Assembly (NCBI GenBank): GCA_023150125.1
Contig: JAKLLM010000001.1
Coordinates: 1-39,140, forward strand
Origin: Zoogloea sp.
GTDB taxonomy: Bacteria > Pseudomonadota > Gammaproteobacteria > Burkholderiales > Rhodocyclaceae
Direction of reading: 5' to 3'
Length of the DNA: 39,140 nucleotides
The notes beneath the pieces are model-generated. The model did no database searches, was not told the DNA's origin, and saw only the letters and a program-made list of their open reading frames with translations. Positions 10,031 through 23,998 of the stretch are shown piece after piece. How positions within the stretch are numbered: the first letter of the stretch is position 1; every line of letters starts with the position of its first letter. The translations under genes and the position numbers were made by a program.

Positions 10031-10040
10031 GAGGGCGTTG

Positions 10041-10125
10041 GGAAGTGGGAAGTGGGGAAGTGGGAAGTGGGGAAGTGGGAAGTGGGGAAGTGGGGAAGTG
10101 GGGAAGTGGGGAAGTGGGGAAGAGG
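10041..10125. repeat. Tandem short repeat, 11 units of GGAAGTG(G) (7/8-mers)
   Basis: Read directly: units of 7,8,7,8,7,8,8,8,8,8,8 bp (last GGAAGAGG), filling the interval between the GST stop codon (10126-10128) and ruvA start (10030). Confidence 0.97.
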
Positions 10126-21100: not shown

Positions 21101-21262
21101 GGCGCCGCGGCCCGCAAGTCCATGGGCACCGGCGTGTTCGGCGGGATGCTGGCGGCCACCTTCATCGCCACCATCTTCATCCCCATGTTCTTCAGCTGGT
21201 TCGCCGGGCGCCGGGCGTCCAAGGCCGCCATTACCCCCCACAGCTCCGAGGAGAAGGCATGA
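18143..21262 (+). CDS. RND efflux transporter permease (AcrB/MexB-like, HAE1)
   Basis: MSRFFINRPIFASVISIIIVIAGLMAARALPIAQYPEITPPTVVITASYPGASAET; 1039 aa. Confidence 0.95.
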   Translation: MSRFFINRPIFASVISIIIVIAGLMAARALPIAQYPEITPPTVVITASYPGASAETLAKTVAAPIEEQLSGVENLLYFNSTASSNGSLTITASFEVGTNVDMATVNVNNRVKIAEPRLPDVVRQFGVTVQKRSNDILMVTTLTSPDASRTPLFLSNYALVNVLDDLKRIPGVGDAQIFGALDYSIRLWLKPDRMAQLGVTATDVANAIAGQNRQNAAGKIGQEPAPAGQQLVYTVTAKGRLSSPEEFGNIVVRAAGPGGVLRVKDVARVELGAQNYDASTTLLGKPVVGVGIFLQSGANALEVASKVRTRMDELKQKFPSGVDYVVPFDTTKFVQASIEEVVRTLGEAILLVAVVVFVFLQNWRATLIPLIAVPVSLIGTFAGLWMFGFSINTLTLFAMVLAIGIVVDDAIVVLENVERLMWEEKMQPREAAIEAMREVSGAVVAIVLVLCAVFVPVAFLGGIAGKLYQQFAVTVAISVTLSGVVALTLTPALCALLLQTKHEEAPIFRPFNRLFDAFTRSYTGMVNKTLHHRIIGTVACTIIVGGSIFMFRAVPGGFVPAEDQGYLISALMLPDGASLQRTRVTGESFQQKLKQDESVDKVFVIAGNDIIGGGLKPNAGTVFIPLKDWSERSTGADELAKKFTGLGMTMPDGLAIVFNPPAIRGLGAAGGFEAYIQARGDADPQKLAGVMQQFMEALKKRPELTGINTFFRPTSPQLYVEVDEAKAISMDIPVADVYQTLQSTMGSLYVNDFNLNGRTYRVQLQADGAYRAQPDDLGKVYVRSTAGAMVPVGTLIKVKQIVGAEQLERFNGFLSAKVLGNSIPKVSTGDAIKIVEEVARETLPAGYELAWTGQAFQEKRTGTTSAIAFGFGIIMVFLILAAQYEKWSLPLAVIMSVPFALFGALAAVMIRGMPNDIYFQIGLVVLIGLAAKNAILIVEFAAQKRAEGMHVLEAALEGARLRFRPIVMTSLAFILGVFPLVISTGAGAAARKSMGTGVFGGMLAATFIATIFIPMFFSWFAGRRASKAAITPHSSEEKA

Positions 21263-22692
21263 TGCGCCGCCCTGACGCTCCCCACTTCACCGCACGGCCC
21301 CTCGCCCTCGCCGCGCTGACGCTGGCCGTGCTGTCCGGCTGCGCCCTCGGGCCCGACTACGTGCGCCCGGCGGCCCAGCTCGGGCTGCCCGAGGCCTACA
21401 CCGCCGCCGGCCCGCTGGCCGCGGCGCCCACGGTGGCCGCCAACTGGTGGTCGCTGTTCGGCGACGCCCAGCTCGACGGCCTGGTCGCCCAGGCCCTCTC
21501 CACCAGCCCCGACGCCCGCATCGCCGCCCTGCGCATCGAGGAAGCCGACGCCCTGCTGCGCCAGGTCGACGCTGCCCTGCTGCCGCAGGTCAACGCCGAG
21601 GCCAGCGGCAGCCGCAACCGGATCAGCCAGACCAACGCCACGCCGATCCCGTCCACCGCGCCGATCACCCGCAGCAGCGCCCGCCTGGCCCTGTCCACCT
21701 CCTTCGAACTCGACGTGTGGGGCAAGCTGCGGCGCGCCTCGGAGGGCGCCCGCGCCCAGGCCCTGGGCACCCGCTACGCGGCCGACACGGTGTCGCTGAG
21801 CCTGGCCGCCGCGGTCACCCAGGCCTACCTCAACCTGCGCGCCATCGACGCCCAGCTGCTGGCCGTCGACGACTCGCTGAGCAGCCAGAGCCGTAGCACC
21901 CAGCTCACCCGCACCCGCTTCGAGGGCGGCATCGCCTCGCAGCTCGACGTGCAGCAGGCCGAGGGCGCGCTGGCCACCTACACCGCCGCCCGGGTCGAGC
22001 TCGACCGCGCCCGCGGCCTGTCCGAGAACCTGCTCGGCCTGCTGGTGGGCCAGCCCGGCCTCAAGATCGCCGCGGGCGACCTGCGCACCCTGCCGGTGCC
22101 GCCGGTGCCGCCCGCCGGCCTGCCCTCGGCGCTCCTCGACGCCCGCCCTGATGTGAAGAAGGCCGAGACCGACCTGGTCGCCGCCAACGCCCGGATCGGT
22201 GTCGCCAAGGCCGCGCTGTTCCCCAGCATCACCCTCACCGGCAACTTCGGCCGCGAGAGCAAGGACCTGTCGCAGCTCTTCAGCGCCCCGTCGGCGGTGT
22301 GGTCCTTCGGCGCCGGGCTCACCCAGCCGATCTTCGAAGGCGGCCGCCTGCGCGCCCAGGTGGATCAGGTCACGGCCCAGCAGCAGCAGAGCCTCGAAAC
22401 CTACCGCAAGACCGTGCAAGGCGCCTTCCGCGAAGTGAACGACGCCCTCGTCAGCGTCGGCCGCAACGCCGATGCCGAGGACGCCTACACCCGCGCGATG
22501 AACGCCGCCAGGCGCGCCCTGCAGCTCGCCCAGGCCCGCTACGACGCCGGCTACTCGCCCTACCTCGAAGTGCTCAGCGCCCAGCGCACCGCCAACGACG
22601 CCACCGTGGCCTGGATCCAGAACCGCCAGGCCCGCCTCACCGCCACCGTGGACCTGTTCAAGGCCCTGGGGGGTGGCTGGAAGGGCGCCTGA
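21259..22692 (+). CDS. RND efflux outer membrane factor (OprM/NodT-like lipoprotein)
   Basis: LSGCALGPDYVRPA; FELDVWGKLRRASEGARAQ; GAGLTQPIFEGGRLRAQVDQ; ATGA overlap with acrB-like gene. Confidence 0.93.
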   Translation: MMRRPDAPHFTARPLALAALTLAVLSGCALGPDYVRPAAQLGLPEAYTAAGPLAAAPTVAANWWSLFGDAQLDGLVAQALSTSPDARIAALRIEEADALLRQVDAALLPQVNAEASGSRNRISQTNATPIPSTAPITRSSARLALSTSFELDVWGKLRRASEGARAQALGTRYAADTVSLSLAAAVTQAYLNLRAIDAQLLAVDDSLSSQSRSTQLTRTRFEGGIASQLDVQQAEGALATYTAARVELDRARGLSENLLGLLVGQPGLKIAAGDLRTLPVPPVPPAGLPSALLDARPDVKKAETDLVAANARIGVAKAALFPSITLTGNFGRESKDLSQLFSAPSAVWSFGAGLTQPIFEGGRLRAQVDQVTAQQQQSLETYRKTVQGAFREVNDALVSVGRNADAEDAYTRAMNAARRALQLAQARYDAGYSPYLEVLSAQRTANDATVAWIQNRQARLTATVDLFKALGGGWKGA

Positions 22693-22698
22693 GGCCCA

Positions 22699-22731
22699 AT
22701 GCCGCCGTGTGACACGATCACGCGGCGGCAT
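22699..22731. terminator. Strong stem-loop immediately downstream of RND operon
   Basis: ATGCCGCCGTGTGA-CACGA-TCACGCGGCGGCAT, 14-bp arms with one T/G position; 6 bp after the OMF stop codon. No obvious T-tract. Confidence 0.6.
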
Positions 22732-22759
22732 GATTCACCCACACCCTGTCGTTTGCCTG

Positions 22760-22796
22760 GTACGAGCCCTTGTGTCTTCATCACAAGGGCTCGTAC
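22760..22796. repeat. Perfect 15-bp-arm hairpin
   Basis: GTACGAGCCCTTGTG-TCTTCAT-CACAAGGGCTCGTAC. Confidence 0.95.
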
Positions 22797-22802
22797 TCCT
22801 TC

Positions 22803-22858
22803 AACGATAGCTCTTTCCCTTATCACGAGGCCTCGTGATTCGATAAAACGCTATCGTT
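22803..22858. repeat. 56-bp nested palindromic unit, copy 1
   Basis: AACGATAG...ATCACGAGGCCTCGTGAT...CTATCGTT: 8-bp outer inverted repeat enclosing an 18-bp perfect palindrome. Confidence 0.95.
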
Positions 22859-22859
22859 C

Positions 22860-22885
22860 CTTTGATGCGAGGCCTCGAATCAAAG
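22860..22885. repeat. GGCC-centred imperfect palindrome
   Basis: CTTTGATGCGAGGCCTCGAATCAAAG, 13-bp arms with one mismatch. Confidence 0.9.
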
Positions 22886-22902
22886 GTAGAAGGCCGTCTA
22901 CC
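22885..22902. repeat. GGCC-centred imperfect palindrome
   Basis: GGTAGAAGGCCGTCTACC, 6-bp arms around A-GGCC-G. Confidence 0.85.
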
Positions 22903-22907
22903 ACGCC

Positions 22908-22963
22908 AACGATAGCTCTTTCCCTCATCACGAAGCCTCGTGATTCGATAAAACACTATCGTT
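22908..22963. repeat. 56-bp nested palindromic unit, copy 2
   Basis: Same length and architecture as 22803-22858 with three substitutions; offset exactly 105 bp. Confidence 0.95.
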
Positions 22964-22991
22964 CCTTTAGCACGCGGCCTCGTGCTAAAGG
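22964..22991. repeat. GGCC-centred hairpin
   Basis: CCTTTAGCACG-CGGCCT-CGTGCTAAAGG, perfect 11-bp arms. Confidence 0.93.
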
Positions 22992-23007
22992 AACGAGGCC
23001 GCGTACC
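22990..23007. repeat. GGCC-centred imperfect palindrome
   Basis: GGAACGAGGCCGCGTACC, 6-bp arms with one mismatch. Confidence 0.75.
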
Positions 23008-23017
23008 ACGATCACAA

Positions 23018-23031
23018 GGCGGTGTACCGCC
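23018..23031. repeat. Small hairpin at end of array
   Basis: GGCGGT-GT-ACCGCC. Confidence 0.8.
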
Positions 23032-23128
23032 ATCACGCGCACCCGTATCAAGCCGACGTCCGCGCCATTCATGCAAACGGTGCGGCAAGCTGCCGGCCGG
23101 CGGGCACTCACCCTCCCGGTGAGCCCGG

Positions 23129-23998
23129 TTAGGTGGCCGGCGCCGCGCCGCGGGCCCGCCCGACCCGGTTGAGCACCAGCGACAGCAGGATCACCCCGCC
23201 CCCCAGGGCTATCTTCTGCAGATCCGCGTCGCGGTTCCAGATCAGCAGGTTCACCAGCAGCCCCAGCGGCACGTGCAGCTCGTTCATCACCGCCAGCGCG
23301 CCGGCGTCGACGCGGGTGCTGCCCTTCACCCACCAGAACATCCCCAGCGCGGTGGCGAACAGGCCCATCCACACCAGTACGCCCCACTGCAGCGCGGTGT
23401 GTGGCAGCTTGGCCGGGTTGCCGAAGATCAGCCACGAGGGCAGCGCCAGCACCAGCGCGCCGAGAAAAAAGTGGCCGAAGAAGCGGTACAGCGGCACGTC
23501 GGTGACGTGGCGGGCGAGCAGGTGGCGGCACAGCACCTGGCCGGCGGCGAAGGTGGCGTTGGCGAGTTGGAGCAGCAGGAAGCCGGTGAGGTAGTCGCCC
23601 TCCAGGGGCTGGAAGCGGATCGCCACCCCGCCGGCCACCGCCACCAGCGCCGCCAGCAGCGCCCAGGGGTTGAAGCGGCGCGCCAGGGCGTCGTCGAGGA
23701 GGGTCACGTAGATCGGGGTGAGCACCGTGAACAGCAGCACCTCGGGCACCGTGAGCACCGTGAAGCTGCGGTACAGGCACAGGTAGGTGACGCCGAACTG
23801 CAGCGCCCCGGCCAGCCACAGGCCACCCACCAGCCGCGGCGGCAGGCCGCGCCAGCGGGTGAAGGGGATGAACACCAGCGCGGCGATGGCCACCCGCACC
23901 AGCACCGCGAAGTCGCTGTCGACCCGCCCGGCCAGGTATTCGCCGATCAGGCTGAACGAGAAGGCCCACAGCAGATTGACGGTGACGAGGTAAGGCAT
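23129..23998 (-). CDS. EamA/DMT-family transporter
   Basis: MPYLVTVNLLWAFSFSLIGEYLAGRVDSDFAVLVRVAIAALVFIPF; ten-TM-like hydrophobic profile. Confidence 0.85.
   Translation of the reverse strand: MPYLVTVNLLWAFSFSLIGEYLAGRVDSDFAVLVRVAIAALVFIPFTRWRGLPPRLVGGLWLAGALQFGVTYLCLYRSFTVLTVPEVLLFTVLTPIYVTLLDDALARRFNPWALLAALVAVAGGVAIRFQPLEGDYLTGFLLLQLANATFAAGQVLCRHLLARHVTDVPLYRFFGHFFLGALVLALPSWLIFGNPAKLPHTALQWGVLVWMGLFATALGMFWWVKGSTRVDAGALAVMNELHVPLGLLVNLLIWNRDADLQKIALGGGVILLSLVLNRVGRARGAAPAT

Follow-up and report, generated by a model that had tools for sequence, protein, structure and literature searches.

Bacterial intergenic repeats are normally recognized by a common sequence and explained by a transposase. 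In REP, BIME, and REPIN elements the enzyme is RAYT (TnpA-REP), and a GTAG or GGAG tetranucleotide (or CGTC) stands at one end of each palindrome. Plasmid iterons of the RepA/RctB type are direct repeats of ∼17 to 22 bp, set in helical phase and read by a multimerizing protein; they are found at a single origin, next to the gene for the initiator. The GTAG-1 repeats of Thauera sp. MZ1T are reported to be short-stemmed (5 bp) palindromes that are mostly clustered and were first noticed in a tandem repeat database (PMC3733652). In marine Beggiatoaceae, a single lineage, short tandem repeats with the sequence TAACTGA form numerous intergenic sets (PMC4679880).

Here we describe an intergenic array from Zoogloea sp. 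and the large set of satellite-like, extragenic arrays, restricted to one clade, of which it forms part. Each comprises ∼10 to 20 dyad-symmetric units in tandem, every one exactly 21 bp long; most arrays lie between convergently transcribed genes or just beyond the 3′ end of a gene. The arrays change by gain and loss of whole units, and the 21-bp geometry is kept while the unit sequence varies, which suggests that what is conserved is the geometry and not the sequence.

Results

The window (the whole 39,140-nt stretch of DNA analyzed) holds a tandem array at 22709 to 23044, in which 16 units of 21 bp follow one another with zero indels (no strand assigned; defined by the 21-nt register, unit scores, and lags of 21). 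To its left lies a gene for an outer membrane efflux protein (21259 to 22692, + strand; Pfam OEP, E = 1e-48), whose stop codon is 17 bp upstream of the array; to its right is a convergent EamA-family transporter gene (23129 to 23998, − strand; Pfam EamA, E = 5e-18), whose 3′ end is 85 bp away. Written in 21-nt columns, the units yield a dyad-symmetric consensus close to GTGATnnnATCACGAGGCCTC, and self-identity of the region peaks at lags of 105, 63, 42, 21, 126, and 84. The unit nearly equals its reverse complement, the axes lying at unit positions 7 and 17.5, i.e., 10.5 bp apart; these are one property, not two, because symmetry about one axis in a periodic sequence forces symmetry at the half period. 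For the units in 22751 to 23044 the symmetry z is 5.2. At up to two mismatches, ACGAGGCCTCGTGAT is matched seven times in the window, every time inside the array region (0.11 expected). Elsewhere in the window, a nearly perfect tandem repeat of GGGAAGTG (10040 to 10122; 8/15-nt unit, 98% matches) is unrelated to the array.

The first-pass annotation had reported at least nine closely packed inverted repeats in 22699 to 23031, and we recover them to within a few bases. The first hairpin lies at the left edge of the array (22699 to 22731, no strand; arms 22699 to 22712 and 22718 to 22731, 93% complementary) and is followed by inverted repeats at 22760 to 22796 (arms 100% complementary), 22803 to 22858 (80%), 22859 to 22886 (94%), and 22885 to 22902 (89%). 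The strongest hairpin (22959 to 22996, − strand; arms 95% complementary) is also a terminator-like site according to the consensus scan alone; an overlapping inverted pair (22972 to 22983 and 22993 to 23004) is 100% complementary, and the palindrome GGCGGTGTACCGCC occupies 23018 to 23031. Folding of 22699 to 23031, compared with dinucleotide shuffles, gives z = −11.8 on the + strand and −11.6 on the − strand (0 of 100 shuffles as good). These hairpins are parts of one array in exact 21-nt register, not separate elements, and the 21-bp period, which the annotation missed, is the main feature.

Tandem Repeats Finder identifies a 105-bp (five-unit) block present in two copies at 22802 to 23010 (no strand; 83% matches, no indels). 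The segment 22908 to 22963 is a near copy of 22803 to 22858, offset by 105 bp; the pair of long hairpins is a five-unit duplication. Exact matches to a 52-bp core palindrome, CGATAG-N40-CTATCG, were found at 22805 to 22856 and, 105 bp (five units) further on, at 22910 to 22961 (neither assigned a strand).

Open frames also run across the array on both strands (22699 to 23172 on the + strand, 157 codons; 22801 to 23088 on the − strand, 95 codons), with 7-residue repeats such as LITRPRD. Both are probably artefacts of the 21-bp (seven-codon) period, and annotation as hypothetical proteins is possible; coding heptad repeats were rejected because the reading frames are interrupted in sister arrays. 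Arrays of this kind yield false ORFs with 7-residue periods that are liable to be taken for genes.

The same genome (G000) contains at least seven further arrays besides that at 22709 to 23044. BLASTN searches of this genome with the region recover its unit family at C265 and C222 and, in diverged form, at C415; an array at C355 was detected through the core pattern. An unbiased 173-kb sample of G000 holds three further period-21 arrays, whose units (ACTTTGCCAAGTTGACGCTGC, a TGCCTAAAAnTTAGGC type, and a CCATC...GATGGC type) are unrelated to that of the window; a fourth period-21 match lies inside a coding region. The exact unit is rare, since the 18-mer ATCACGAGGCCTCGTGAT gave a single, unrelated match in the GTDB collection, and the region has no blastn match among plasmids and phages. 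The assembly is 82.5% complete in 421 contigs, and array densities are taken from samples; the occurrence of orthologues in other assemblies speaks against an artefact of assembly.

An orthologous array downstream of azlD is present in 3 of 24 genus genomes (G000, G005, and G008). Between G005 and G008 it aligns without gaps over 377 bp at 85% identity, compared with 95% for the upstream coding sequence. That the array belongs to a dispersed repeat family, one of the candidates in the first-pass annotation, is supported: further copies lie at other places in the genome, and an orthologous site is conserved. The outcome it had set against this idea, neither copies nor conservation, did not occur: same-genome copies and the orthologous azlD array were both found.

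Arrays with other units occur in G002, G003, G017, and G018. GTGAT-type arrays lie 3′ of an MmeI-like/DNA-methylase gene (L029:2170-2631 and L092:3401-3820; G000, C265, and G008, C10), and those of G000 and G008 are probably a second orthologous array, strongly diverged. The orthologous EamA gene of G002 is followed by a 21-bp array built from another unit (GTGACATCTCGCCACGGCGTA; L041:2508-2885). The orthologous gap between the EamA and outer membrane factor genes of G008 holds a different, weaker array. One gene end, that of EamA, bears different arrays in different species.

Unbiased sampling gave 3 arrays in 173 kb of G000, 3 in 289 kb of G008, and 4 (one weak) in 400 kb of G017; none was seen in 400 kb of the congener G006 or in 100 kb of each of four other genera. 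Period 21 prevails among the strong intergenic repeats of the three sampled genomes and is not seen in G006 or the four other genera. Period-21 leads in G006, G033, and G028 were weak and unconvincing on inspection. Extrapolation from these partial genome samples leads to an estimate of ∼45 to 60 arrays per genome in array-bearing species. The 21-bp register is exact in every array read, and the unit sequence varies between arrays and species. Strong repeats of other periods were also observed: period 18 near azlD in the congener G001 (L058:2079-2310; z 17.8) and, in the period scan, periods 30 (L186:15457-15756, G000) and 56 (L155:9374-9673, G017), both called non-coding.

The 52-bp core is common in arrays, and its interior differs between them. 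Exact matches were found in 9 of the 24 genus genomes, with up to 9 per genome (0 to 1 for a reversed control); outside the genus there were single matches, no more than the control level. When the gap was left free between 26 and 55, 35 of 41 CGATAG...CTATCG pairs (eight genomes) had a gap of exactly 40, the other six being scattered. The exact match at C258 of G000 is probably fortuitous, and with two mismatches allowed chance matches swamp the signal.

To assess symmetry, we tested 24 arrays, drawn from six genomes, by setting the position-specific profile of each array's 21-bp unit against versions with permuted columns. These include orthologous arrays and shared unit families and are not 24 independent cases; 23 of them are dyad-symmetric (p < 0.03, mean z 4.3), and the L079 array of G008 shows no significant dyad symmetry against column permutations.

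Indels were scored in the two cleanest orthologous array alignments, both between G017 and G018. One alignment has two within-array indels of 21 bp each; in the other, the indels sum to 105 bp plus steps of 21-bp size. Within a genome, several loci have unit types in common, and these vary from species to species (GTGAT in G000, G005, and G008; GAACAnnrTTCCGACGnGTCG in G017 and G018), which suggests exchange between arrays. At 25 array sites that had both neighboring genes called, with orthologous sites counted separately and a few doubtful calls from a simple codon-usage gene caller, the neighbors are convergent in 9 cases, tandem in 13, and divergent in 3; the background of 214 intergenic regions (≥100 bp, two congeners) comprises 30, 120, and 64, respectively. 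At tandem sites the array is usually closer to the 3′ end of the upstream gene. The flanking genes and proteins that were scanned have nothing in common and include no shared partner protein and no replication initiator gene.

Whole-unit indels and quick turnover of units between loci and species would also fit arrays without function, whose size is set by unequal exchange and slippage, whose symmetry comes from quasi-palindrome template switching, and which persist at gene ends because they do least harm there; symmetry without strict pairing points the same way, as does the scarcity of arrays in divergent promoter regions, a pattern also seen for REPs. Slippage alone, however, produces a different period at each locus, whereas every strong palindromic array has period 21, and plain slippage is further argued against because no other period takes over. 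The core spacing of exactly 40 despite a diverged interior and the retention of the azlD array in three species suggest constraint, and we regard a purely functionless origin as rather unlikely.

The first-pass annotation took arms that differ in sequence yet pair as a sign of selection on hairpins. This stands, modestly, for the GTGAT family, in which same-hairpin pairing exceeds cross-hairpin pairing (p 0.002 to 0.004), and in the comparison of G005 with G008, which has five compensatory pairs on the gap-centered (GGCC) axis versus zero to two on the other 20 axes. It does not carry over to the other families, where same-hairpin pairing shows no excess (core), and across the 24 arrays the local symmetry belongs to the consensus and does not come from compensation within individual units. 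Over all arrays, pairing shows no excess close to the axes and a small excess 10 to 19 bp from the gap-centered axis; between G005 and G008, broken pairs are no rarer on that axis than elsewhere. Mismatches comprise 81 G-T and 76 A-C, counted irrespective of array orientation, and show no wobble bias. Rfam gave no match for the array region at E up to 1, and a known RNA family was rejected on this ground.

Arrays acting as RNA, i.e., as tandem 3′ UTR hairpins that end transcription, shield the 3′ termini of mRNAs, or undergo RNase III cleavage, their pairing being under selection, would account for the pairing excess in the GTGAT family, the five compensatory pairs, the position at gene ends, and folds that are very stable on both strands. 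Such a role is at odds with the missing per-hairpin compensation in other families, with pairs broken as often on the gap-centered axis as elsewhere, and with the lack of both a wobble bias and an Rfam match; it also leaves the exact 21-bp spacing in every family without a reason, and we judge it rather unlikely. The symmetry resides mainly in the consensus, as for a double-stranded site read by a dimer, and a symmetric double-stranded protein site suits the weak per-hairpin compensation somewhat better than a selected RNA hairpin does, though hairpins may also be under some selection.

First among the first-pass candidates was a REP/BIME-like family, here taken as one mobilized by a RAYT transposase; the extragenic, palindromic, multicopy, clustered character of the repeats speaks for it, as does the presence of Y1_Tnp genes in some congeners. 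A PF01797 search, which matched in control genomes, found no Y1_Tnp in the complete genome of array-bearing G008 and none in G000 or G005, whereas G006 has four and yet showed no arrays in its sampled 400 kb. No phased GTAG/GGAG or CGTC tag is common to the arrays: GTAG occurs zero to one times in nearly all of the 24, and partial phase in a few (GTAG in G002, GGAG/CTCC or GACG) is not shared by the set. With both the RAYT gene and the phased tag missing, a RAYT-driven origin was rejected, and we give it very little credence.

Ordinary back-to-back terminators of two convergent genes would suit the convergent position and two weak terminator-like matches, both on the − strand, but are scarcely tenable: the consensus scan found no GC-rich hairpin with a T tract on both strands and no terminator-like match on the + strand, the array has 16 phased units, the hairpins are more than two terminators need, as the first-pass annotation had argued, and the same architecture recurs in tandem intergenic regions and genus-wide, with a 21-bp period that terminators do not account for.

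Discussion

The likeliest working model, with a probability of roughly 0.4, is that the arrays are multivalent platforms for one or more dimeric proteins and form boundaries at gene ends. This reading of the geometry is favored because of the exact register, the symmetry of 23 of 24 arrays, the core spacing of 40, the 21- and 105-bp indels, the kept azlD array, and the excess of convergent sites; a dimer-read site is expected because the symmetry lies in the consensus, without per-unit compensation. A length of 21 bp, or 2 × 10.5, would be the smallest whole number of base pairs equal to whole helical turns. An array of such units would present a symmetric half-site on one face of the helix every turn, and dimeric DNA-binding protein(s) could assemble cooperatively along it; the complex might then constitute a topological (supercoil) or transcriptional boundary. 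Recombination between arrays within a genome may spread unit types and so give rise to families common to several loci.

Several observations count against the platform model. Units within one genome are too different for any single sequence-specific protein to bind all arrays, and the model would call for more than one protein or for a protein that recognizes shape. No partner protein emerged, the L079 array is not significantly symmetric, and a few compensatory changes do occur. A wider and rather doubtful proposal is that geometry and not sequence defines the arrays as a class of element in bacterial chromosomes: dozens of satellite arrays at gene ends, with dyad-symmetric 21-bp units in helical phase, whose unit sequences would turn over from array to array and species to species with fast-evolving DNA-binding partners or be read by a shape-reading protein, and which would serve as chromosome or transcription boundaries. 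If a protein does assemble on them, the arrays would be a satellite-like, fast-evolving element of the bacterial chromosome and a natural test of helical phasing selected independently of sequence.

In comparison with known systems, the arrays, like REP, BIME, and REPIN elements, are made of short palindromes outside genes that occur in large numbers per genome and cluster, in alternating orientation, close to the 3′ ends of genes; they differ in having no RAYT in G008, no tag, an exact 21-bp tandem period, and array-specific units. With iterons they share direct repeats at helical-turn spacing, seen here as the exact 21-bp register; unlike iterons, they form an estimated 45 to 60 chromosomal arrays with different units and no common neighbor gene. 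GTAG-1 of Thauera sp. MZ1T is the nearest published relative found and may be an earlier description in a related bacterium; compared by description only, it is defined by the GTAG tag, which is unphased in our arrays, and no 21-bp period is stated in its description (PMC3733652). The TAACTGA repeats have a 7-bp unit of one fixed sequence, as against the sequence-diverse 21-bp palindromes of the arrays (PMC4679880). Our search of the open-access literature found no description of 21-bp phased arrays. Set against the usual intergenic repeats, and with no RAYT, what these arrays have in common is a length of two helical turns and dyad symmetry, while their sequence is variable.
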